Of a stretch of DNA of 39,436 bases, positions 2,487 to 37,802 are shown piece after piece. Within the stretch, counting starts at the first letter, position 1. Each line of letters begins with the position of its first letter. A program made the translations under genes and the position numbers. This DNA comes from a virus. The notes under the pieces were generated by a model that worked only from the letters and a program-made list of their open reading frames with translations, did no database searches and was not told the DNA's origin. The DNA lies in IMG/VR virus record IMGVR_UViG_3300035670_000563, positions 1-39,436 of that record. One strand, given 5' to 3'.

Positions 2487-2788
2487 ACTCTCAGTCCTTG
2501 AATCACCGTCACCGGCATAATGCCCGTGTCGCTCAACTCTATGCCGTGCGATACCGACTGCACCACGCCGCGCCAATGTTGGCTGGTAAAACGGTCGCGC
2601 ACTTCAATCATGTCGCCCTTTATCAATCCTGCGCGGTGAACGGTTTTCAATGTGAACGGAAACGCGCCGCTGCTTAAATCCAATTCCACGCGCCCGCGCA
2701 TCGCGGCAGCTTGCACGGTGGCGCACAGCGGATCGTAAATCGCCGGTGAAGGCGTTGCGCCTGCGCCGCGCACGCATTTGAGAATCAT
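2483..2788 (-). CDS. Hypothetical tail-associated protein
   Basis: The product has 101 residues. An ATG at 2788 overlaps the preceding stop as ATGA and starts MILKCVRGAG; the frame continues to 2827 but the extra 13 residues lie inside the upstream gene. The middle (RVELDLSSGAFPFTLKTVHRA) and end (MIEVRDRFTSQHWRGVV) look beta-rich. The phrase 'GDMIEVRD' followed by 'WRGVVQSVSHGIE' resembles small barrel domains of baseplate or hub proteins. No family is assigned with confidence. Tight coupling to both neighbours suggests one assembly unit at the tail tip. Confidence 0.65.
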   Translation of the reverse strand: MILKCVRGAGATPSPAIYDPLCATVQAAAMRGRVELDLSSGAFPFTLKTVHRAGLIKGDMIEVRDRFTSQHWRGVVQSVSHGIELSDTGIMPVTVIQGLRV

Positions 2789-3471
2789 GCGACTTTCTTC
2801 ATGTAAATGACCACATGCACATTCCATGGCGCAGGCGTGGAGAAGTTCACCGCATCATTCACAATGGTGAATTTAGACGGCGTTTGAATCCGGCAAAGCC
2901 TTGCCAACGTTTGGTAGGTGCATTGAAACACGCTGGGCACGCGCTGCAATTTCAGCTTTGCAGCTTTGGTGGCTTCAGTGTCGGCATCGGTAATTTGATC
3001 CGCGCTTTTCACAGCGGGCAGGCTGAATGTAATGCCGTCATCTGCCAGCGTAGCATTGCCGTCGCCAAAATGAATCAGCGGGTTATTGCCTACGGGTTTG
3101 GCGCTGAATGTACCGGCAATCGCCTTTTTGCTGAGTGTTTTCTTTTCGCCACGTTGGGAAAAGGTCACTGTTTCAGCTTTTTCTTCTTTATAAGTAATTC
3201 GCCGATCATCCTGCCCAGCACGCCCGACCGTAATTGATGCGCCGGGGATAAACGACACGCTGCTGCTGATATAGTCAATTTCCAGTTTTGTCGGGTCGAA
3301 ATAGACCAGAAAACCAATTGCGTCACCCGGCTCAAAGTTTGATGTGCGCCCAAGCCGCCGCGCATTATCGCCACCATCCTCCGCGCTGCGGGTGTCAATT
3401 TCCACGCCGACTGAATCATCACCCGCCGCGCCGCCAATTTCAAACGTAAAATTCGCGCTTACCGTTCCCAT
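2785..3471 (-). CDS. Hypothetical tail-tip/baseplate protein
   Basis: The protein has 228 residues, starting MGTVSANFTFEIGG and ending MKKVA. There is no signal peptide or membrane segment. Beta-type sequence dominates, with a central Lys/Glu-rich stretch (KEEKAETVTFSQRGEKK) and a terminal segment NVHVVIYMKK. It follows the 845-residue repeat protein by five bases and overlaps the next gene by ATGA. It is likely co-translated with the hub-like C-terminal part of that protein and structural, but no family is recognised. Confidence 0.65.
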   Translation of the reverse strand: MGTVSANFTFEIGGAAGDDSVGVEIDTRSAEDGGDNARRLGRTSNFEPGDAIGFLVYFDPTKLEIDYISSSVSFIPGASITVGRAGQDDRRITYKEEKAETVTFSQRGEKKTLSKKAIAGTFSAKPVGNNPLIHFGDGNATLADDGITFSLPAVKSADQITDADTEATKAAKLKLQRVPSVFQCTYQTLARLCRIQTPSKFTIVNDAVNFSTPAPWNVHVVIYMKKVA

Positions 3472-3476
3472 AATGT

Positions 3477-6014
3477 CTACTCCAAAATCAAAAATTGAGT
3501 GAGTTCAGGCTGTTGCAGCCCATGTTGAATCTTGAATTTATAGCGGCGGCGCGTGTATTTAACACTGGCGATACTGAATCCATTCCCGCTTGTTTTCAGT
3601 TCCGGGCTATCCTGCTGCCAGTAAATACCCCCTAAATCCCGATGTTGCCAATCCCATTCAAACGCCCGATAAATCGGGAAACGCACCGCTGCCTCGCCGT
3701 TGGTGAACTCCAGAATTTCGTGCTCTTGCACCCATTCAACTTCAGGCGGCGCGATAATCTGAATGCTGCTATGCCCTGAATGCTCCAAGCCAAAATCCTG
3801 CCCGTATTCACGCCAGGGATACGCATATATATATAGAGTAGCTTCTCGCTGCGATACGTTCTCCAACTCAGCGCTATAACGCGCCTCCACGCCGTTTTCA
3901 CGCCCGTCCTCATCGGTTATCACGATGGAATCGTAAAAATCGCCGGGCGGTTCATCACTGTATTCAAAAATATGCTGCACATCGTCAAACGATGCGACCG
4001 GAGTACCCGTGCCAAGCCGGTTGATTGCCACTGCGCCGGTCTGATAAACCGCCATCAGCGTGCCGTCTGGTTTTGAACACAGCGCACCTCCCGCCGCAGC
4101 GGCTATCTGTTGCGCCAATTCCAGACGGTTTGCGGCATCGGCATCAATCCGGCCAGCGGGGATGTTCCAATCCACAATCCGCCAATCCACTGCCTGCCCA
4201 AGAATGCTTTGCACCGCCGCAAGCGCGGTAATCGCCGCAAATGTTTCAGTAATGGTTTGCTCAGACAAGCGCATTACCGGCGATGCCACGCGCAGGGTAA
4301 AACTAGCCTCGCCGCTGTCGCCGTTATCACTAAAGGCGCGTGAAACCACATACAGCGCGTAACTCTCGCCTTGCGCCACTAAAATCAAATTATCACCAGG
4401 GCGCATCCGCCCATAGTCCTCAATACGCGCCAACTGCAAACGCCCTTCCCATGCCGCGCTGTCAATGCCTTGCGATACCTCATAATCCAGCAACTCGACA
4501 CGCCGCCCGTTGTGCAACGCATACAATTCCTGGCTAACCACCGTTACCGGACGCACATCGTTAAACGGCAGCATTAATGCGCCTTGCACCACATCCGCCA
4601 CCGGCGCATAAAACGGCAACAGCAACGCGCCCTCCAGAACAATCGCGCTGCCAAACGGCAATAAAATTGCGACTTCCGTCAAGCGCTGCGTTTCAAAGGT
4701 CAGCAACAACGCACTTTCCAACGCCGCGCCAAATGGTAATAGCAACCCTAGTTGCACAACATCCGGCACGCTTTCAAACGGCAAACGCAACGCGCCTTCC
4801 GTTACCCTTTGCGTTTCAAACGGCAGGCGCAAGGCAAATTCCAACGCCGCGCCAAATGGCAACAACAACCCGCCTTGCACAACATCCGGTACGCTTTCAA
4901 ACGGCAGTAACAGCCCACCTTCCGTCAAGCGCTGCGTTTCAAAGGTCAGCAACAACGCACTTTCCAACGCCGCGCCAAATGGTAATAGCAACCCTAGTTG
5001 CACAACATCCGGCACGCTTTCAAACGGCAGTAACAGCCCACCTTCCGTCAAGCGCTGCGTTTCAAACGGCAAGCGCAGCGACTTTTCCAGTGCAGCGCGA
5101 AATAAAACATACAACGCGCCCTCAAGCGGACAACCAAACGGCAAACGCAACGCGCTTTCCAGTGCAGACCTAAACGGCAGCAACAACGCGCCGTGCGCTG
5201 GATTTGAATCATGCTGAAAAAACGCCGCGTTTCTTCTGGCGTATGTTGTGGCGCTAGAGATTTGGGTGTAATGGACTGAGCGCCGCGCATGGCTTACGCC
5301 GGTCTCTGGTTCGCGGTATTCGACATCACGCCGCGCAAAACCGACTACCGAACTTTGCTGCGCGAACTCACGCGCTGTATTGGTCACATCGGTTTTGGAG
5401 GCGGCTTGCGCGAAACTGACATCACGCAATGCGGCATCTGCCAGTGCGTCGGATTGCGCAAAAACCGCATCGCGGCGGGCTGAAGTAATCGCTGTATCTG
5501 CTTGACGGAACGTGCGCTCGCTTGACGCACTGTCAATCCGGGTATCTGGCTGTCGATATGCGGCGTTGCGCGTAACTTGATACGCGACAGTTTCCGCTTG
5601 GCGATATGCGGCGTTTTTATGTGCGTAGTCTGAGACCGAAGCGACCTGTCCGAACGAAGACATGCGCCAAGACGCATCCGCAGAAGTAGCGGATTGACTA
5701 AAACCACCTGCGCGGGAACTCTTGTCGCTGCCACGCCCACACAACACGACTAAGCCGATGTTGGGAACAAAAGCGGGGGGAACTTCCGCATCACTAAACG
5801 CCACGTCAAGCGCTGGCACAAAGTATGACGGGTAATTTACCCCACCACTAAACACCACGCTGTATTGCAGCGTCGGCGCGAAAGCGGGGTAACTCTCCGC
5901 ATCACTGAATACTACGTCAAGCGCAGGTACAAGCGAAGCCGGGTAACGTGCGTCATCGCTAAATACCACGCTGTATTGCAGCGTCGGAAGAAATCCCCCA
6001 AGTGGTTCAGGCAT
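3477..6014 (-). CDS. Large repeat-built tail protein with hub-like C-terminal domain
   Basis: The protein has 845 residues in four blocks. Residues 10-83 hold two 37-residue units, each a pair of PTLQYSVVFSD-type and PALDVVFSDAE-type segments. Residues about 103-270 hold some eleven 16-residue units of the form AAYRQADT....ARRN. Residues 275-484 hold about sixteen 12-15-residue units of the form GLLLPF, including a recently amplified 41-residue super-unit. Residues 490-845 form a non-repetitive domain (YEVSQGIDSAAWEGRL, RMRPGDNLILVAQGE, NRLELAQQIAAAAGG) resembling phage tail hub or tip proteins. It follows two fibre paralogues and precedes small tail-tip genes. I infer a virion tail-tip protein whose repeats form an elongated solenoid or flexible arm. 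I know no described family with this combination. Confidence 0.75.
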   Translation of the reverse strand: MPEPLGGFLPTLQYSVVFSDDARYPASLVPALDVVFSDAESYPAFAPTLQYSVVFSGGVNYPSYFVPALDVAFSDAEVPPAFVPNIGLVVLCGRGSDKSSRAGGFSQSATSADASWRMSSFGQVASVSDYAHKNAAYRQAETVAYQVTRNAAYRQPDTRIDSASSERTFRQADTAITSARRDAVFAQSDALADAALRDVSFAQAASKTDVTNTAREFAQQSSVVGFARRDVEYREPETGVSHARRSVHYTQISSATTYARRNAAFFQHDSNPAHGALLLPFRSALESALRLPFGCPLEGALYVLFRAALEKSLRLPFETQRLTEGGLLLPFESVPDVVQLGLLLPFGAALESALLLTFETQRLTEGGLLLPFESVPDVVQGGLLLPFGAALEFALRLPFETQRVTEGALRLPFESVPDVVQLGLLLPFGAALESALLLTFETQRLTEVAILLPFGSAIVLEGALLLPFYAPVADVVQGALMLPFNDVRPVTVVSQELYALHNGRRVELLDYEVSQGIDSAAWEGRLQLARIEDYGRMRPGDNLILVAQGESYALYVVSRAFSDNGDSGEASFTLRVASPVMRLSEQTITETFAAITALAAVQSILGQAVDWRIVDWNIPAGRIDADAANRLELAQQIAAAAGGALCSKPDGTLMAVYQTGAVAINRLGTGTPVASFDDVQHIFEYSDEPPGDFYDSIVITDEDGRENGVEARYSAELENVSQREATLYIYAYPWREYGQDFGLEHSGHSSIQIIAPPEVEWVQEHEILEFTNGEAAVRFPIYRAFEWDWQHRDLGGIYWQQDSPELKTSGNGFSIASVKYTRRRYKFKIQHGLQQPELTQFLILE
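4563..5192 (-). repeat. GLLLPF repeat array (12-15-residue units) within the repeat protein
   Basis: About sixteen successive units share a small residue, three hydrophobic or arginine positions and LPF, for example GLLLPFGAALES, ALLLTFETQRLTEG and GLLLPFESVPDVVQ. The trio forms a 41-residue (123-bp) super-unit found nearly identically at residues 341-381, 382-422 and 423-463. DNA of the copies near 4680-4780 and 4920-5027 is almost identical, which indicates recent duplication or conversion. Confidence 0.9.
5205..5708 (-). repeat. 16-residue AxFRQxD...ARRN repeat array within the repeat protein
   Basis: Roughly eleven 16-residue units follow one another, such as AAYRQAETVAYQVTRN, AAYRQPDTRIDSASSE and VEYREPETGVSHARRS. 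They share an aromatic residue, glutamine or glutamate near position 5 and arginines near the end. The regular period suggests a helical or beta solenoid. These units are more diverged than the GLLLPF units. Confidence 0.85.
5745..6014 (-). repeat. N-terminal VVFSD repeat of the repeat protein
   Basis: A 20-residue segment starting PTLQYSVVFS alternates with a 17-residue segment starting PALDVVFSDAE. The pair occurs twice in residues 10-83 and a partial third follows (PNIGLVV). Tyrosine-proline pairs recur at the unit ends. The underlying DNA is also repeated, for example GCTGTATTGCAGCGTCGG near 5861 and 5970. Confidence 0.85.
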
Positions 6015-6019
6015 GTCAA

Positions 6020-6973
6020 TTACCGTTTAGGAAACGCGATACGGTTGCCGGGGTCGGTACTAATTCCCGAACATCTCACGGCGATATAATCCAGACCAGT
6101 ATATTGAAATGTTGTGAGATTTCCGATTACGTTATTCGGCAGTAACCAAAAATCCGCCACGCTAAAATTACCAAGCGGGATGCCGTAGACATTTGGTTTG
6201 ACTAAATACATCGGGAACAACGGCGTAAGCTCATTCCCTAAACCGTCTTTAGTGTTGTAATCGCCGCCATTCGGAAATAACGAAGCCGTTGCGTACCCGT
6301 TAAATCCCAAAATAACGCCAATGGTTGCCAATTGCGCCCGCGCATCTAAGCCCGTCAGCATATTGCCAATTTTATCAAGCGCCTTGATCGGAAACGCCCA
6401 CGCATAGTCGCCAGTGCTTTGAGAAATACACGCTCCAGTCTGAATCAACGCCGCGTGCGGCAAGGTAGTCGCCGACCAGGGCGTATCACGGGTGTATTCG
6501 CTGAAAATGGTAATGCCGCCGTAGGCCACATCTCCCCACGACGTGTAATCTGTCCCTACCAATGCCACAAATTTAGCGCTGGCGAACACGAAAAAAACAC
6601 CCGCCACGCCGTTGCCTTTCCTCTGGGTGTTATTAGTCAAATTTTGCGTCTGGTTTGTGCCGGTGTGAGACACTTCGTTCCAAGTTTCATAGCCGTATAG
6701 CGTTATTTCCGTCGCAACGTAGTGATCCAGCATCAAATACTTAAACAAGCTACCGTTGTATGAAAACGGCGCTTTTAACACCTGTTTATTCGTACCGGCT
6801 GCGGCATCGTGCAGCGTCCAGCCTGAGGGGATTGTCGCAATGATTTCGGTATTTTCTTGGTCACAACCCGCGCTAAGGCTTGCCTTATTGGTTTGTCCAG
6901 TAAGCAACGCCACCAAGTCAGACATGATATTGGCTTGTGTGGCAGCGGGGGTATAGGCATATTTAGCGTACAT
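6020..6973 (-). CDS. Tail fibre-like protein, paralogue 2
   Basis: The 317-residue product begins MYAKYAYTPAATQANIMSD and is closely similar along its whole length to the 319-residue product of the gene just upstream in the operon. Shared blocks include NKQVLKAPFSYNGSLFK, LYGYETWNEV, HAALIQTGACIS and the ending RIAFPKR. Differences cluster in short loops, such as residues 105-125 and the region before GLGNE. The fold appears beta-rich with no transmembrane segment. Position among tail-tip genes supports a fibre or receptor-binding role. Function is inferred from context. Confidence 0.7.
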   Translation of the reverse strand: MYAKYAYTPAATQANIMSDLVALLTGQTNKASLSAGCDQENTEIIATIPSGWTLHDAAAGTNKQVLKAPFSYNGSLFKYLMLDHYVATEITLYGYETWNEVSHTGTNQTQNLTNNTQRKGNGVAGVFFVFASAKFVALVGTDYTSWGDVAYGGITIFSEYTRDTPWSATTLPHAALIQTGACISQSTGDYAWAFPIKALDKIGNMLTGLDARAQLATIGVILGFNGYATASLFPNGGDYNTKDGLGNELTPLFPMYLVKPNVYGIPLGNFSVADFWLLPNNVIGNLTTFQYTGLDYIAVRCSGISTDPGNRIAFPKR

Positions 6974-6984
6974 AAAACCTCTCT

Positions 6985-7944
6985 TTAGCGTTTAGGAAAC
7001 GCGATACGATGTCCGCTGTCCGTTGTGGTATTTGCCCCCCAACATTTCACCGCGATATAATCTTGCCCACCATATTGAAATGTCGTTAGATTTCCGATTA
7101 AGTTATTCGGCAGTAACCAAAAATCCGCCGCCGCGCTAAAGTCGCCAATCGGAATGCCGTATACCGGCGCATTCATGGCGTATATCGGAAACAGCGGCGT
7201 ATATTCAGCGCCCAAACCGTCACCGATGTTAAAATCACCGCCGTTCGGAAAGAATAAACTGCTTGTATACCTCGCCGGAATCTCTACGCCGATAGAACCC
7301 AAATACGCCCGCGCCCCCGTACCGGTCAAAACCAAATCGGTTTTGTCGCGTGCTTTCAGCGGCCATACATGCGTGTAAGGCGAAAGACTGATACACGCTC
7401 CAGTCTGAATCAACGCCGCGTGCGGCATAGTGGTGACTGACCAAGGCGCGGCGCGGGTGTATTCGCTGAAAATACTCATCCCGCCATAAGAAATGTCCCC
7501 CCACGAAGTAGAGTAGGCATTGGTAATCGCCACAAATTTTGAACTGGCGAACACATAAATAAACCCCGCCACGCCGCTCCCTTTTGCATGTGGCGCTGTC
7601 GTGCCGTTTTGCGTTTGGTTTGTTCCGGTATGCGCCACCTCATTCCAGGTTTCATAGCCGTATAACGTCAGTCTGGTATTTGTATTTAGCGAATGATCCA
7701 GCATCAAAAACTTAAACAGGCTACCGTTGTATGAAAACGGCGCTTTTAACACCTGTTTATTCGTACCCGCAGCGGCATCGTGCAGCGTCCAGCCTGCGGG
7801 GATTGTCGCAATAATTTCGGTATTCGCTTGGTCGCAACCAGCGCTCAAATTGGCTTTGTTGCTTTCGCCGGTCAGCAACGCCACCAAGTCAGACATGACG
7901 TTAGCAACAGTAGCAGCGGCGGTATAAGCATATTTAGCGTACAT
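6985..7944 (-). CDS. Tail fibre-like protein, paralogue 1
   Basis: The 319-residue product begins MYAKYAYTAAATVANVMSD. It is a full-length tandem paralogue of the following gene, separated from it by 11 bases. Both start with the same 'alanine-rich helix then LVALLTG' segment and share most aromatic positions. The ATG lies one base beyond the stop of the upstream gene, so translation is coupled. No enzyme motif, signal peptide or membrane helix is present. A tail-fibre or tip-decoration role is the best reading. Confidence 0.7.
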   Translation of the reverse strand: MYAKYAYTAAATVANVMSDLVALLTGESNKANLSAGCDQANTEIIATIPAGWTLHDAAAGTNKQVLKAPFSYNGSLFKFLMLDHSLNTNTRLTLYGYETWNEVAHTGTNQTQNGTTAPHAKGSGVAGFIYVFASSKFVAITNAYSTSWGDISYGGMSIFSEYTRAAPWSVTTMPHAALIQTGACISLSPYTHVWPLKARDKTDLVLTGTGARAYLGSIGVEIPARYTSSLFFPNGGDFNIGDGLGAEYTPLFPIYAMNAPVYGIPIGDFSAAADFWLLPNNLIGNLTTFQYGGQDYIAVKCWGANTTTDSGHRIAFPKR

Positions 7945-12192: not shown

Positions 12193-12576
12193 TTATACCG
12201 TATACAGAAAAAGTGAACCGTAAAACTTATCATCAGACGGATTCAAACGCCACCCGCGCTGCGAGACTTCCCGCGCTTGACGCTCAAAATCAACGCGCAC
12301 AATCGCGCTAAAACCATCCCAAATGAAGGTATAAGAAGAGGTTGCACCCGCATCTAACAACGTTTGGATTTGCAGCATATCCGCGTAAGTAAGCCATTGC
12401 CTACCCCGCGCCCATTCCAGAGTAATCGGCCTGCCACCGCTCAACACTTGCGAAGCAACAGCCAACCCACCGCCCACCGTGCGGCGCTTGCTTTGGCGGA
12501 TTGGCGACCAGCCATTATGCTCATCAAGCCAATCAGTGTTGACCGGCAAACTCCATACGCCCAAAGAACGTGCCAT
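12193..12576 (-). CDS. Short tail protein following the tape measure
   Basis: The 127-residue product starts MARSLGVWSLPVNTDWLDEHNG and ends YGSLFLYTV. Its ATG overlaps the tape measure stop as TAATG. Siphoviruses encode a small minor tail protein at this place (lambda gpM-like position), which completes the tip beneath the tape measure. Sequence features fit a compact beta fold (GGRPITLEWARGRQWLTYADM, SSYTFIWDGFSAIVRVDFE). It is immediately followed by the third late motif. The role rests on position and size. Confidence 0.65.
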   Translation of the reverse strand: MARSLGVWSLPVNTDWLDEHNGWSPIRQSKRRTVGGGLAVASQVLSGGRPITLEWARGRQWLTYADMLQIQTLLDAGATSSYTFIWDGFSAIVRVDFERQAREVSQRGWRLNPSDDKFYGSLFLYTV

Positions 12577-14561
12577 TAGCTTAATTCCTTCAAAGCACGT
12601 AAAAACCCATTCATAGAATTGCGATCACCAATCAGCGTGCCACGCGCTGCGCGTCCGCCGTTGTTAATGTTCCAGGTAAACTCGCCTAAATTGTTTGGAG
12701 AAGAACTCCCCCCCGGCACACTCCCGCCGCTGGCAAACTTCAGCGGCGCACCGAAGTTAATATGGTCTAGCAAATCCCTAAACTTAGCCGCTTTGTCTTT
12801 GCGCACGATGTACTCCCCGCCCTCAAGTAACGCAGGGATTCTGTCGCCACCGCCGTAGCCAGGGATGGGTCCGCCACTGGCGCGTTTCAAAATGCTGCCG
12901 ACGACATTCATCTGTGTTGCAAAGGGATTCAGCGATATAGCAGAAAACGCCTGCTTAAACAGCGATTCGCTCTCAGCGAGCTTGGCTTTAAGCGGCTTAA
13001 TATCCGCATCAATGCGCACCACGCGCTCTTGCTGAATCTCGGCCAGCTCTTGTTGCAGTGTCGCCAAATTCGCTTCAGCGGCGGTAATGTCCGCGTCTAC
13101 CGTCACTGTTCCGGCCTGTTCACCGGCGACTTCAGCAATCCCGCGTTGCGTATCCACTTGCGCGGCGGTAACTTGCGTGAAAACCTCTTGCAGTTTACGC
13201 AGCGAGGCTTCTGCCGCGTCGACGTCTTCTACTTGACCAGTCAGTGAACGAATATTTTCTGCCAGTTCCCTTGCGCCTTCACTATCGCCCGCCGCTAACG
13301 CTGTTTGCGCTTGGGCGAATTTTTCAGCAATCTCAGCTTGAATATCCGCCTGCGCACCGGCTTCGGTCATCGTTTCACGCCGACGCGCCCGGATTTCATC
13401 TTCAATACTATTCAGGGTAGAAGCCAAGCCCTCGTTCAGCGCTTTGATTTGCTGTATCGCGGCATTCTCTAGCTCAATCCACTGGTCGGTGGTAAACTTT
13501 GCAGATGCCAATCTCTCGCGGTCAAGGGCGACCCGATAATTAGCCACATCATCAAGATAGCTTTTTATCTCTTCCTGACTTTGCTTTTCCTGCACCGCAC
13601 GTAGCTTTGCCAGACGTTCGTTTTCTTGGGTTATGAGTTGCTGCACTTTCGAAATACGCGGGGCGTATTTCTGCTCAATCTGCTCGGCCACATTTTCCAG
13701 CGTACCCTCTAGCGTTTGCAGCGGGTTTTCACGCAATAACGCCGTCAATCCTTGCGTCACAGTAGAATAAATAGCCAATACATTTTTCACCGCAGGCGCT
13801 AATTTCGCACCTACCGCTTCTGCCAGTTCAGCAGTCGACTGATTAGCCGTGTGCACCGCGCCTGCATAACCCTGCGCCGCTGCAACCGCCGCGCCGCCGA
13901 ATTGCGCCTCCAGCACACCAAGAATCACGCTCTGCGCTTCAAATAGCCGTCCGCTTTCCTGCAACTGTTTGATTTGCTCTTTTTGCTGGCCGGTGAACGA
14001 TACCCCAACGTCTGCCAGTGCTGAAATACCCGCAATTGGATTCTCCAACGCCTTCCCAAGCATCGTCGCCGCGCCCGGCAAACCGCTGCCAAACACTTCT
14101 TGCATGTCACCGGAGAGCGCAATGGTGCGCGTGAACGTATCACCGGCAACAGTGCGAAACGTGGTCAATACACCAATTGCATCCGCCACGCCCTTCGTAT
14201 CGCCCAGCGTGTTAAACGCTTGCTGACGGGATAAATCTTGAAGTTGTTTGGCGGTAAGACCAGCGGCCTGCCCGGTGGCCTTTAGTTGTGATTCAAAACG
14301 GAAAAGTTCACGCTCGCGCTGTCCGAATTCTTGTAACCCCTGTTGCGCAAACTCAATTGCTTTGGAAACAGTAAATAGACCCGCTGCATACGCACCAAAT
14401 CGCGTCAGCGTTTTACCAAACGACTGCGCGGCCTTATCCGCCTCCGACATTTTGCCTGCGGCTTTAGCGGCCTCTTGCGCGACTTGCTTCTGACCCTGCA
14501 CAAAATTCTGTGCTTTAAGCAGCAGCTCAATCGCAAGATTGTAGGTTTTGGTATCCGCCAT
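12576..14561 (-). CDS. Tail tape measure protein
   Basis: The 661-residue protein sets tail length and is threaded in the tail tube. Residues 1-60 are helical and lysine/glutamine-rich (FVQGQKQVAQEAAKAAGKM). Residues 90-250 form the typical tape-measure core (FRFESQLKATGQAAGLTAKQ, GKALENPIAGISALADVGVS). Residues 290-540 are long coiled coil. A glycine-rich tail with GYGGGDRIPALLEGGEYIVRK is a known end signature of such proteins. It is the longest helical protein in the late region and follows the tail assembly chaperone genes. At about 1.5 angstrom per residue it predicts a flexible tail near 100 nm. The start sits next to a palindromic repeat, and a small upstream gene couples by TAATG. Confidence 0.9.
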   Translation of the reverse strand: MADTKTYNLAIELLLKAQNFVQGQKQVAQEAAKAAGKMSEADKAAQSFGKTLTRFGAYAAGLFTVSKAIEFAQQGLQEFGQRERELFRFESQLKATGQAAGLTAKQLQDLSRQQAFNTLGDTKGVADAIGVLTTFRTVAGDTFTRTIALSGDMQEVFGSGLPGAATMLGKALENPIAGISALADVGVSFTGQQKEQIKQLQESGRLFEAQSVILGVLEAQFGGAAVAAAQGYAGAVHTANQSTAELAEAVGAKLAPAVKNVLAIYSTVTQGLTALLRENPLQTLEGTLENVAEQIEQKYAPRISKVQQLITQENERLAKLRAVQEKQSQEEIKSYLDDVANYRVALDRERLASAKFTTDQWIELENAAIQQIKALNEGLASTLNSIEDEIRARRRETMTEAGAQADIQAEIAEKFAQAQTALAAGDSEGARELAENIRSLTGQVEDVDAAEASLRKLQEVFTQVTAAQVDTQRGIAEVAGEQAGTVTVDADITAAEANLATLQQELAEIQQERVVRIDADIKPLKAKLAESESLFKQAFSAISLNPFATQMNVVGSILKRASGGPIPGYGGGDRIPALLEGGEYIVRKDKAAKFRDLLDHINFGAPLKFASGGSVPGGSSSPNNLGEFTWNINNGGRAARGTLIGDRNSMNGFLRALKELS

Positions 14562-20250: not shown

Positions 20251-22122
20251 TTACGCCACCACAGCGCCGTATAAGCCGCGATAATCAATCACCGCGCCGC
20301 CGTAGACATGCCGGATTTTGTAGGTGATTTTGTCGTTGCTGAACATGCTGCCGACATTCGGCTGGTCTTGGACAAACAATTCAGGCGTTTCGTTGCCATT
20401 CAAAAAGCCAATTTCTACGCACGGAATATCCATCTTGTCCGCACTTAAGAACCAGTTATTCGTGTCCGTCCAATACCACACCGGATGCACCTTCATTTGC
20501 AAACTTTCCACAAAATCAGTGTCGTTGTTGGTCGTGCGACGGAATAACTCAAACGCGGCTTCTTCCAAATCTACCGGGACCCACAAGTGCGCAGGCGGGA
20601 TTCCCAAGCGTTGCGAACTACCCGCCTCGGTCTGCTTCATCATTGCCAAACGACCAGCAGACAGCGTGGCAGAACTCAGCGCGGTAGAACCCAGATTGCC
20701 GTGACCGCCGGTAAACAGCGCGGTGGAATCGTAAATCGTGGGATTGGTTGCCAAGAAATCCATAGCGAATTTAGACAGGGTACGCTGCGCGGCGCGACTC
20801 AATTTAGTAGGAATGCGCCGTACTTGACCGACATCGTCGTTCGCAATCATTTCCATCGTCACGTCTTCTGTGCCACCGCGTTTTGTCATCGCATAGGTAG
20901 CCTTCTCGTCGCTAGGCGAAGTCATCGCCAAATACGCTGCGCCTTCGTTCACGCCCGGCAGATTGCCGTACCCACCCCAGCGCAAGCGCTCTTGCGTGCG
21001 AAAATCGCGCACCGGGACCACATCGGCCAAGTCGCGCCATGCGTCGTACATATTCTTTTCGCTGTAATCGCGTACCATTGCGCGGGTGATTGAATCGCCC
21101 AACACATTCGCCCAACTGGAGGAATTTAACGATTCGCGCAAACGCGACTGGTCAGCATCTTGAATCCGCCCAGTCACATTGCGGTCGCCGGTGATGTCTA
21201 CATAGGCTTCGCGGATGCTATTCACGCCGCCTTTGCGCATGAAAAAGTCATCCAGCATCTTGACCACTTTTTCACCGCGACTTTCGCCAGCGTCAATCCG
21301 GCCGCCCGCTTCGCGCACCTTGCCGGTATCGGTGAAGTGCGACAGATAGATGCGCTCTTGCTGAATTGCTGCTTTTGCATCATCCACACCGAAGCGAGAC
21401 TTCAAAAGCAGCGCTTCACGAATACGGGATTGCGCAACATCCGGCAAGCCGGATTGCTTTACGGAATCGAGCGCTTCTACCATGCGCAGCGCTGCCATTG
21501 CATCGTCGGGCTTTTCAGTATTCGGGCGAGACACTTGCGGCGCAGATTCACGATGCGCGGAAGTCGCCATTTCCGATGGGAAACACGCCTCGATCAACTT
21601 GTGCAGCTTGCCGCCAGCACCAGGCTCAATAATCAAATCAACTGAATGCGCACGGGTAAACCGCACAGCCTCGCGCACCGCGCCCGGCTTGACTTCGCCC
21701 TCCACATCAATCGAGAAGCCAAATAAATCCGCCAGATTAGCGTCAAGCGCCTCTTTCATTTTTGCGCCAATCGTCGGGTCAAGCACTTTCAAAACCGCCT
21801 GAATTTCACCGCCGCTGGCGCTTTCCACAAAGCGCGGCTGCGTCAAACCGCCAACCAGATTGCGGAAGTCTTTGCCCTGCCCTTTAAGATGCTCCGCATC
21901 GCTTTTCACGAACACGCGCACACCCTCAAACAGCGGGGTTGCTTCCTTCAACACATCGGCCGGATAGTTCACGTTGTTTTTCGATTTACCGGAATGAATC
22001 ACAGTAATCAAAAACGAGTTGGCGTTTTTCGCTTCGACCAAATGAAACGGCATCAAATCCTGAAGATTGCCGCTTTCAGCGGGCGCGGACTCGACCAAAC
22101 GCACACAGACCAAGCTCAACAT
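20251..22122 (-). CDS. Prohead protease-major capsid protein fusion
   Basis: The 623-residue chain (ATG at 22122; an upstream ATG at 22188 lies inside the preceding gene) has two parts. Residues about 1-190 match phage prohead protease: SFLITVIHSGKSKNNVNYP, ATPLFEGVRVFVKSDAEH (candidate catalytic His) and LADLFGFSIDVEGEV (candidate catalytic Ser in GFSI). Residues about 200-230 are a charged linker, followed by a scaffold-like helical segment. Residues about 320-623 are an HK97-fold capsid protein (DVVPVRDFRTQERLRWGGYG, RIPTKLSRAAQRTLSKFAMD, HVYGGAVIDYRGLYGAVVA). Cleavage at the linker would free the capsid subunit. The gene is the second after late motif B. Confidence 0.8.
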   Translation of the reverse strand: MLSLVCVRLVESAPAESGNLQDLMPFHLVEAKNANSFLITVIHSGKSKNNVNYPADVLKEATPLFEGVRVFVKSDAEHLKGQGKDFRNLVGGLTQPRFVESASGGEIQAVLKVLDPTIGAKMKEALDANLADLFGFSIDVEGEVKPGAVREAVRFTRAHSVDLIIEPGAGGKLHKLIEACFPSEMATSAHRESAPQVSRPNTEKPDDAMAALRMVEALDSVKQSGLPDVAQSRIREALLLKSRFGVDDAKAAIQQERIYLSHFTDTGKVREAGGRIDAGESRGEKVVKMLDDFFMRKGGVNSIREAYVDITGDRNVTGRIQDADQSRLRESLNSSSWANVLGDSITRAMVRDYSEKNMYDAWRDLADVVPVRDFRTQERLRWGGYGNLPGVNEGAAYLAMTSPSDEKATYAMTKRGGTEDVTMEMIANDDVGQVRRIPTKLSRAAQRTLSKFAMDFLATNPTIYDSTALFTGGHGNLGSTALSSATLSAGRLAMMKQTEAGSSQRLGIPPAHLWVPVDLEEAAFELFRRTTNNDTDFVESLQMKVHPVWYWTDTNNWFLSADKMDIPCVEIGFLNGNETPELFVQDQPNVGSMFSNDKITYKIRHVYGGAVIDYRGLYGAVVA

Positions 22123-22138
22123 GCTGCTTAATAAATTT

Positions 22139-22312
22139 TTACTTTTCACTCGCTTTATCCTCTTTCTGTTGCGCGACCTGGCTTGCATAGAGCTTTTGGC
22201 CGTAAATTGTCACCACGCCAATATCACGATTTGGCTTACGCACAAAACTGAACACATCCGATTCGTCAATGCCTACCGCCTTCGCAGCTTCGGCCTTAGT
22301 CAACTCTCTCAT
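22139..22312 (-). CDS. Small hypothetical protein preceding the capsid fusion
   Basis: The product has 57 residues, starting MRELTKAEAAKAVGIDESDV. A GTG at 22336 would add eight residues but would fall in the predicted promoter region. The N-terminal half reads like a short helix-turn-helix-type segment (LTKAEAAKAVGIDESDVFSF); the rest is charged. It begins 58 bases after late motif B and ends 16 bases before the capsid fusion start. It is the first gene of that transcript. Function is unknown; a small head assembly or regulatory role is possible. Confidence 0.55.
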   Translation of the reverse strand: MRELTKAEAAKAVGIDESDVFSFVRKPNRDIGVVTIYGQKLYASQVAQQKEDKASEK

Positions 22313-29209: not shown

Positions 29210-30148
29210 ATGAAAACCGAACTCTCAACCGCAATGCTGAATGGACTTCAGTATTACGCACAGCAAGAAGGCGCTGAAAAACCACGTACCCAAACAACTC
29301 GCGCACTCGTTGTACGCGGATTGTTACACGAATTTCTCGGTTTGACCGCAGAAGGCTATGCAGCACTCGGCTATCAACTGCCAAATGATAGCACACCGAC
29401 CGCTGAAATTTTAGATTCTGGCAGTCAAGAAACGATGGAAATGAACGAAGTAATAGAAGCCGCGCCGGAAGTAGCAACAGAAGTGTGCGAAGTAATCGAA
29501 GCCGCGCAGCAAGTAAGCGAAGTAATCGAAGCTGCGCCTGAAGTGAGCGAAGTGTGCGAAGCAGCACCTGAAGTAAATCAAGTGAGCGAAGCCGCGACAT
29601 TTACCTGCGCGAGCTTCCCAATCTACCCCGCAATCGTATTCAAACACCCGTATTACCCACCTGAACAAACTGAAATCGCCACGCGCAAATGGCGCGGTCC
29701 GTCTATCGCGGTGTACTGGTGGGTAGAGTCTATCTGCGATGCACCTGTTTCTGGTGCGCAGACAATACAGCTAGTTGCGACGGCTGTGCAAGAAAACAGC
29801 GTGGAATTTGATTTGTGCCCATCAGATGTTTCAGTAGCACCTGAAGCGCACGAAGTATCAGCCCTATCGTCAAAATTAACCACAGCCATCAAGGACACCC
29901 TACATGAAAATGCACGAAATCAAAACCCGTCTGTTGGAACAGGGCTACACGCTGGAAGACGCGGCGCGGTTTATCAGCACGGAATCGCGGAAAATCCCCG
30001 CCAGCACAGTCAAAAGCGCACTGCAACGATGGGCAGAAAAGCCCATAGAACAAACCCCACGCGGCAAGAAAACCATGTTGGCCTTGATTGGCGTTTCATT
30101 GCTCATCGGCGAACCCTGCTCGGCGCATGTGCGCACGGTCTGGCATGA
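29210..30148 (+). CDS. First early protein, with valine-glutamate repeats
   Basis: The frame encodes 312 residues, starting MKTELSTAMLNGLQYYAQQE after GGAGTTACC. Residues 1-60 are helical (TTRALVVRGLLHEFLGLTAE). Residues 78-127 are repeats of EVIEAAPEV and EVCEAAPEV. Residues 130-220 form a beta-type domain (IVFKHPYYPPEQTEIATRKW). The last 81 residues, from about 232, read through the following gene in another frame and look like shadow sequence. A lost stop or a single-base frameshift near 29900 may have extended the protein. Function is unknown; being first after the early promoter suggests an early regulatory or takeover role. Confidence 0.6.
   Translation: MKTELSTAMLNGLQYYAQQEGAEKPRTQTTRALVVRGLLHEFLGLTAEGYAALGYQLPNDSTPTAEILDSGSQETMEMNEVIEAAPEVATEVCEVIEAAQQVSEVIEAAPEVSEVCEAAPEVNQVSEAATFTCASFPIYPAIVFKHPYYPPEQTEIATRKWRGPSIAVYWWVESICDAPVSGAQTIQLVATAVQENSVEFDLCPSDVSVAPEAHEVSALSSKLTTAIKDTLHENARNQNPSVGTGLHAGRRGAVYQHGIAENPRQHSQKRTATMGRKAHRTNPTRQENHVGLDWRFIAHRRTLLGACAHGLA
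29440..29600 (+). repeat. Tandem EVIEAAPEV-type coding repeat
   Basis: About eight units of 6-12 codons, built from GAAGTAATCGAAGC and GAAGTGTGCGAAGC-type blocks, encode EVIEAAPEV/EVCEAAPEV. The units remain in frame and vary in number of short and long forms. Such a DNA repeat can expand or contract, changing the length of a linker-like acidic segment. Confidence 0.8.
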
Positions 30149-37079: not shown

Positions 37080-37678
37080 GTTTTTTAGAAGATGTCACCA
37101 GGCGTGCCAAGACTGCCGCGCGGCGTTTTGCGGCTAAGGAACCTGTAGCGAAAACACGGGAAGAGGCAGCGGCGCAAATGCGCATTATGGGGGATATGCG
37201 CCGCGAATTAACTGTGTTGGAAACTGAAATGGAGGAGAAAATCAGCGATATTCGGCAATCGTATGAAAAACGGGCGTTGCCACACCTGGAAAAATACAAG
37301 GGGTTAGAGGAGTCGCTAACTATTTTTGCTGAAGCGCACCGCGATGAATTGACGGATGGCGGCAAGCGCCAATCTGCCGATTTGGGAAGCGGCGCGCTAA
37401 CATGGAGAAAATTACCGCCGAAGGTTTCGCTGCGCAAATTGGATGATGTCATTGCGGCGATTCACCACTTCGCTGAAAACGACGCTGATTTTGCGGCGTT
37501 CCTACGCACTACAGAAGAAGTGAACAAGGAAGCAATGCTCGCCAATCCTGAAAAGGCGGCGACGCTGCCAGGCGTTTCCATCGGCAGCGAAGGCGAGACA
37601 ATCAAGGTCGAGCCGCTGGTGGAAGAGTTGAATGCGGCGAAGCAGGTTAAGAAGCGGACGAGGAAGTTGGCGGCTTAG
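37076..37678 (+). CDS. gam: Gam-type host nuclease inhibitor
   Basis: The 200-residue protein binds double-stranded ends and protects phage DNA from host exonuclease. The GTG start overlaps the previous stop as GTGA, and AAGGAG lies eight bases upstream; the frame opens earlier but without a ribosome site. Its pattern matches Mu Gam: TREEAAAQMRIMGDMRREL, then a long helix pair with LEKYKGLEESLTIFAEAHRD, the conserved GSGALTWRKLPPKVSLRK and the helix DDVIAAIHHF. A lysine/arginine tail ends it. Its stop codon lies in a repeat unit. Confidence 0.85.
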   Translation: MSFLEDVTRRAKTAARRFAAKEPVAKTREEAAAQMRIMGDMRRELTVLETEMEEKISDIRQSYEKRALPHLEKYKGLEESLTIFAEAHRDELTDGGKRQSADLGSGALTWRKLPPKVSLRKLDDVIAAIHHFAENDADFAAFLRTTEEVNKEAMLANPEKAATLPGVSIGSEGETIKVEPLVEELNAAKQVKKRTRKLAA

Positions 37679-37802
37679 CCAGGTAGGGTGCGTTAGCCCG
37701 GTAGGGTGCGTTAGCCCGGTAGGGTGCGTTAGGCGCATCTTTTCGCGCCGTAACGCACCATTGGCACATTGAAACGGTGCGTTACGCTTCGCTAACGCAC
37801 CC
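37675..37802. repeat. REP-like array after gam
   Basis: Three 18-bp tandem units TTAGCCCGGTAGGGTGCG run from 37675 to 37728; the first unit contains the gam stop codon. A hairpin follows from GGTGCGTTAGGCGC and its near-complement at 37746-37759. Another stem, GGTGCGTTA/TAACGCACC, lies at 37776-37801. Together they look like several insertions of one palindromic element widespread in bacterial genomes. The rest to 37861 holds only the ribosome site of the next gene. Confidence 0.8.

Follow-up and report, generated by a model that had tools for sequence, protein, structure and literature searches.

Why would a phage tail protein carry nearly 500 residues of short repeats ahead of its folded domain? 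The window analyzed here, the whole 39,436-nucleotide stretch of IMG/VR virus record IMGVR_UViG_3300035670_000563, raises this question at 3477-6014, where the sole long reading frame runs on the minus strand from 6014 to 3477 and encodes an 845-residue protein, assigned as a tail hub with N-terminal repeat arrays from the reading frame, a PHROG match and a fold match. About 32 short repeat units of three types stand ahead of the hub domain. The original prediction, made from the letters alone, had proposed three repeat arrays before a hub-like domain, and this arrangement was borne out far above shuffle controls.

Three repeat arrays ahead of a Mu-type tail hub

By autocorrelation, array A (residues 10-83; 5766-5987, minus strand) consists of two copies of a 37-residue unit, that is, four half-units of 18-19 residues, with a lag-37 score of 2.82 vs 0.80 for the best of 500 shuffles; a fifth similar strand, IGLVVLCG, follows just after it at residues 86-93. 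Array B (residues 103-275; 5190-5708, minus) contains eleven 16-residue units, such as NAAYRQAETVAYQVTR, and scores 1.19 at lag 16 and 1.36 at lag 80 vs a shuffle maximum of 0.45. Array C (residues 276-490; 4545-5189, minus) holds about 16 LxLPF units, whose spacings run 12, 12, 12, 14, 15, 12, 14, 15 residues and so on, and residues 318-440 within it (4695-5063, minus) form three super-units of 41 residues, or 123 bp, scoring 1.90 at lag 41 vs a shuffle maximum of 0.02. TRF independently recovers periods of 123 bp (3.2 copies) and 111 bp (2.0 copies). Array C was thus lengthened through tandem duplication of a 41-residue block, which supports the local duplication that had been predicted; the super-unit DNA had also been called nearly identical, an overstatement, as the super-units share 34-38 of 41 residues and 96-111 of 123 nucleotides in pairwise comparison (78-90% DNA identity) and differ by silent and coding changes alike. 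Residues 491-845 are non-repetitive in shuffle tests, and over whole regions the repetitiveness of the arrays reaches z 99.3 vs -0.8 for the hub.

The hub domain itself (residues 491-845; 3480-4544, minus) is predicted by AlphaFold2 with a pLDDT of about 90 for most of residues 500-650, and Foldseek matches the model to Mu gp44 (1wru; E 1.2e-7), the trimeric hub of the Mu tail tip (PMC11915804). With VIA-align, residues 495-659 superpose on gp44 with Z 13.3 and an rmsd of 2.4 over 159 residues, and the hub also matches the MuSo2 43-kDa tail protein (Z 13.5), T4 gp27 (1k28; Z 9.3) and chain 7zqp_b of the T5 tip (Z 7.1); VgrG proteins are among the structural matches as well. Because residue 495 coincides with residue 3 of gp44, the arrays lie ahead of the point at which a canonical hub starts. 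At the sequence level, residues 540-842 match PHROG 24698 in a profile search (E 5.7e-26), a family without assigned function. The modeled fold thus identifies a Mu-type tail hub, preceded by an extension of about 490 repeat residues, in agreement with the prediction of a tail protein.

The arrays were not modeled with comparable confidence. Structure prediction, suggested as a check on the arrays, yielded no confident fold: pLDDT was 24-59 across them in the window protein and still about 25 when 37 relatives covering the arrays were included, and we therefore claim no fold for them. Because AlphaFold2 gives no confident array structure, the arrays may be disordered; such poor monomer models would fit folding that depends on assembly equally well. 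Profile searches with the window protein found no Pfam and no NCBIfam match, a PDB sequence search with residues 1-490 found none either, and the protein carries no recognizable cap domain. A match of PDB 4p99 to profile A3 spanned only 36 columns and was dismissed.

Genomic context

The tape measure gene lies at 12576-14561 (PHROG 27166), with the hub gene downstream among the tail-tip genes, and the same order from tape measure to hub is found in Vibrio phages SIO-2 and PG28. Adjoining the hub is a 228-residue companion (2785-3471, minus) with a weak match to the hub-adjacent gene of SIO-2 (24% identity, E 0.008 for the pair). A 114-residue protein (2483-2827, minus) matches the C-terminal end of PHROG 6079 (511-599 of 605), a domain fused to the hub in other relatives and encoded by a separate gene in the window; in the relative L037, phrog_22220 and phrog_24698 are fused in one protein. 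The major tail protein matches PHROG 807, and no tail sheath was recognized among the window proteins searched. A transposase, a DNA transposition protein and Gam make the replication genes Mu-like, and the terminase shares up to 65% identity with its counterpart in Alteromonadaceae phage B23.

Several other features of the window were recorded in passing. Next to the hub gene, 6020-6973 and 6985-7944 (both minus) are tandem paralogues, 69% identical, and candidate receptor-binding proteins; the product of 6020-6973 had no match in a phage-record search. A protein 38% identical to these 317-319-residue neighbors of the hub occurs upstream of the hub in Magnetococcales locus L020. A 645-residue reading frame at 20251-22188 (minus) apparently joins a capsid maturation protease to the major capsid protein, with PHROG matches to both. 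An amidoligase-family gene (213-1052, plus; PHROG 2443, E 2.5e-41) sits at the record end on the strand opposite to the tail genes. In the early region, a 30-bp tandem repeat (29480-29596, plus) gives VSEVIEAAPE-type repeats in a 312-residue frame (29210-30148), and an 18-bp unit is repeated 3.2 times at 97% identity (37675-37732) directly after the Gam-like gene.

Relatives of the hub in phages of diverse bacteria

Used as a single query against viral and genome contigs, the whole protein retrieved no relative, whereas profile searches with the hub succeeded. Only Vibrio SIO-2-like phages were recovered by tblastn, at 24-28% identity, and the hub shows 23-27% identity to Vibrio proteins. A near-identity DNA search of phage records gave no near-identical relative of the window, and thus the unit-number comparisons below concern other lineages. 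Hub relatives were found by profile on seven viral contigs and in metagenome-assembled genomes including those of Magnetococcales and Thioalkalivibrio; a related hub used as query reached 80 viral contigs. Of the 48 genomes in the class to which one Magnetococcales assembly belongs, 40 contain such a hub, as do 10 of the 369 genomes sampled from the class of the Thioalkalivibrio assembly. The nearest relatives found for the capsid protein likewise come from Magnetococcia-class genomes (up to 55% identity, in G411), and a Mu-type transposase was not found in the three such genomes tried.

Members of PHROG 24698 and PHROG 6079, the latter annotated as a tail protein and covering the array-bearing N-terminus of several relatives, include proteins of SIO-2-like Vibrio phages, gp21 of Stenotrophomonas phage S1, a protein of Acidovorax phage ACPWH and ORF28 of Pseudoalteromonas phage B8b. 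ORF28 was detected in purified B8b virions by mass spectrometry, by 4 peptides covering 7.8% of the protein and 4 spectra only (PMC4294664). The original prediction knew no named tail family with this plan, which is partly wrong: the hub does belong with PHROG 24698/6079, and nearly all of the members tested bear arrays.

A common length rule for dissimilar arrays

The region before the hub was repetitive in all 36 testable relatives, in 33 of them with none of 200 shuffles reaching the observed value; it was weaker in VH2 (6/200), PCA1 (2/200) and L036 (2/200). Nearly all of the relatives' hubs were non-repetitive, the exceptions being L043, B8b and L013. By the same measure the arrays of L165, L167 and L174, all of the Magnetococcia class, are weakly or non-repetitive, and therefore the array rule has exceptions, with L165 probably reflecting a wrong upstream reading frame. 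L020 and L045 also have array-like reading frames upstream of the hub, but the repetitiveness of these was marginal (13/500 and 18/500 shuffles) and they were set aside.

Although the arrays, which occupy one and the same position in relatives from several bacterial classes, differ in sequence, their units mostly measure 12, 14 or 16 residues. Vibrio members have about five units of about 14 residues, for example FDFSSSYEAKDPQNQS; other units are QHDAPYGLRVAN in L014, RLRMPWDIRVGT in L037, RYQEAQGLRAGASS in ACPWH and LHEVLYRAFGVESDYA in L016. Pooled autocorrelation over 25 relatives, the window excluded, gave z 19.9 at lag 14 and 15.6 at lag 28 in the arrays vs 0.7 and -2.8 in the hubs, values that are not to be read as probabilities because the relatives are not phylogenetically independent. 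Repeated 7-mers at a spacing of 14 were seen 294 times vs 17 expected. The window units miss this preference, at 18-19 (A), 16 (B) and 12, 14 or 15 residues (C), and lag 14 is significant only in C (z 4.7); the 14-residue unit is a group trend, not a strict definition.

A second property, present in about a third of the relatives' arrays, is strict alternation of hydrophobic residues over long distances, which exceeded z 3 in the arrays of 12 of 39 relatives and in none of 167 control reading frames or 40 hubs; relatives with HQDATRF-type units do not show it. Within the window it is pronounced in C (z 5.9) and not in A (1.3) or B (-0.8). The hydrophobic content of the arrays is 0.38-0.49, and array C is strongly hydrophobic.

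How closely are the three window arrays tied to those of other phages? A by-eye recurrence of A and B was dropped, and hidden Markov models of the window units, the profile check that had been proposed, did not rise above shuffled controls in the first relatives. Local alignment gave more: array C aligns in register with L037 over 70 residues (z 7.3, 0/60 shuffles) and also with L164, L170, L171 and L038; the best relative of array B, L139, is marginal (z 4.6); and array A has no significant relative in this test. The alignments and the alternation pattern together indicate that A, B and C are not one sequence family and that C is a type shared across the group. The description of the arrays as unrelated is therefore right insofar as they are not copies of one sequence family and B lacks the alternation of C, and wrong insofar as the plan of C is common among relatives and all three are short-unit extensions typical of the family.

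Cap domains and separate array genes

Some relatives place recognizable domains, of carbohydrate-binding type, ahead of the array. L037 has a SPRY domain there by Pfam, and L166 and L168, both of the Magnetococcia class, have F5/8-type-C domains scoring 61.9 and 36.2 bits (Pfam cut-off, 28.2 bits). By eye, the Magnetococcia-class relatives L169 and L170, proteins of more than 1200 residues, show several successive F5/8C-like domains ahead of a short array that leads into the hub. Visual inspection also suggested CAP-like and propeller-like domains in L012-L014 and L017, which Pfam did not support and which were left out of account.

In genome G414 the array is detached altogether: seven prophages encode it as a separate 379-residue reading frame directly before the hub gene, with an ATGA overlap with the hub start in the two prophages inspected. 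This Magnetococcia-class genome has at least seven related prophage tail modules of this kind (L180-L186), with separate array genes of identical length. Caps and split genes together argue that the array is a module able to carry binding-type domains and that it can do without a covalent link to the hub.

Sequence changes faster than unit number

The original prediction also held that changes in copy number could tune the length of the arm. Within one lineage of 77 relatives, hub pairs 97, 85 and 76% identical have arrays 83, 58 and 32% identical. Where hubs are at least 95% identical, 5 of 168 pairs show internal insertions or deletions of at least 10 residues, and L100 is a member of all five; the corresponding counts are 0 of 225 pairs at 90-95% and 230 of 1208 pairs at 80-90%. 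Six P. aeruginosa phages all encode proteins of 586 residues, and the array frame of the seven G414 prophages is always 379 residues long. In L100 and L094 the hubs are 96.8% identical and the N-terminal regions differ in both length and sequence, which suggests an exchange of the array module. Judged from these alignments, fast sequence change appears to be a stronger family pattern than copy-number change. The repeat-number comparison, drawn from other lineages, thus found mostly fixed numbers with the few close-pair exceptions; of the length-tuning idea, the duplication history of array C fits, and the near-fixed unit number among close relatives does not, which leaves length tuning weakly supported.

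Possible functions of the arrays

We give roughly even weight for and against the array being a host-facing stalk or adhesive arm on the trimeric tail hub. In such a scheme, the gene would encode the central hub protein for a tail of the long, non-contractile type. As gp44-type hubs are trimers, each tail tip would bear three protruding arrays, acting as stalks that either support the adhesive portion of the tip or constitute it. Alternating C-type arrays would be beta-structured and probably fully folded only on assembly with each other or with a neighbor, and sequence, more than unit number, would evolve, as expected of a host-facing surface. The arm-like role that had been predicted is plausible, since F5/8C or SPRY domains lie on the outer side of the array in relatives. 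Against it stand the possible disorder of the arrays, the missing alternation in array B and in the HQDATRF-type relatives, the weakly or non-repetitive Magnetococcia-class relatives, the absence of a recognizable cap from the window protein and the small number of spectra for B8b ORF28.

Could the arrays instead be strings of docking peptides? Each unit would then be a short strand or linear motif that adds to the edge of another virion protein, such as the side fibers or a tail-tip ring, and the array would lie extended in the virion, counting partners and not forming a fiber. We consider this unlikely, though the units do each carry one short strand-like motif, AlphaFold2 finds no self-contained array fold, the number of units is fixed among close relatives, and in G414 the array can be a separate polypeptide. 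Weighing the other way, unit counts on hubs of this single fold vary from about 5 in the SIO-2 type to about 32 in the window protein, no partner with a matching copy number was identified, and adhesin-type caps fit a stalk better.

Fast divergence, low array pLDDT and the tandem 41-residue duplication in array C are also what a disordered, low-constraint spacer would give if it grew and decayed by replication slippage and served only as a tether. We hold this to be improbable, since unrelated sequences share the 14-residue rule and long-range alternation, the hydrophobic content is high, unlike that of spacers, and unit number is near-fixed. That hydrophobic units, LLLPF among them, insert in the host envelope or line a pore in it at DNA entry seems very improbable: array C is strongly hydrophobic and alternating, and gp44-type hubs adjoin the tape measure at the tip (PMC11915804), but the units of other relatives are polar (HQDATRF, RHQDGDR), so hydrophobicity is not a family feature.

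Relation to known hubs and significance

The window hub shares the Mu gp44/T4 gp27-type fold over residues 495-659, but gp44 has no N-terminal array and begins where the window hub begins. The closest parallels are the PHROG 24698/6079 members, in which a homologous hub likewise follows an N-terminal short-repeat array; they differ from the window in the fused C-terminal domain of PHROG 6079 members and, in the Vibrio members, in having only about five units of about 14 residues where the window has about 32 of three types. Hubs of the Magnetococcales-class prophages belong to the same family, with the array C type in L164 and L171, but F5/8C domains precede the array in many of them, and in one genome the array has a gene of its own; neither feature is found in the window. 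JBD30 gp53 and T5 pb3 are, like the window protein, central tip hubs of long non-contractile tails (PMC11445458), and the part of that source consulted describes them as having seven or six domains and mentions no repeat array.

We found no description of these arrays in the literature searched, most subscription journals lying outside that search. This kind of hub is familiar; what neither that literature nor Pfam nor NCBIfam describes is the array as a rule-bound module of general occurrence. The window protein, chaining three repeat types, is among the most repetitive arrays found. Rapidly changing repeat arms of one kind precede this hub in phages that infect widely different bacteria, often bearing sugar-binding-type domains, which suggests a general and little-noticed plan for host reach at the tail tip. 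More tentatively, it is possible that many Gram-negative phage hubs carry an undescribed modular beta-repeat arm in which unit length (12, 14 or 16, mostly even) and in/out alternation are conserved while nearly every residue is free, so that a conserved hub would present a stalk and host-contact surface that can be rewritten quickly.

In this group the hub, which ranks with the most conserved parts of the tail tip, bears a large and rapidly changing repeat module unrecognized by standard domain libraries. Should the array prove to be a host-facing arm, it would help to account for the use of a single hub scaffold by phages of Vibrio, Pseudomonas, beta-proteobacteria and magnetotactic bacteria, would supply a sequence rule for finding such arms, and would offer a compact system for studying how a repeat protein can retain its fold as its sequence turns over.
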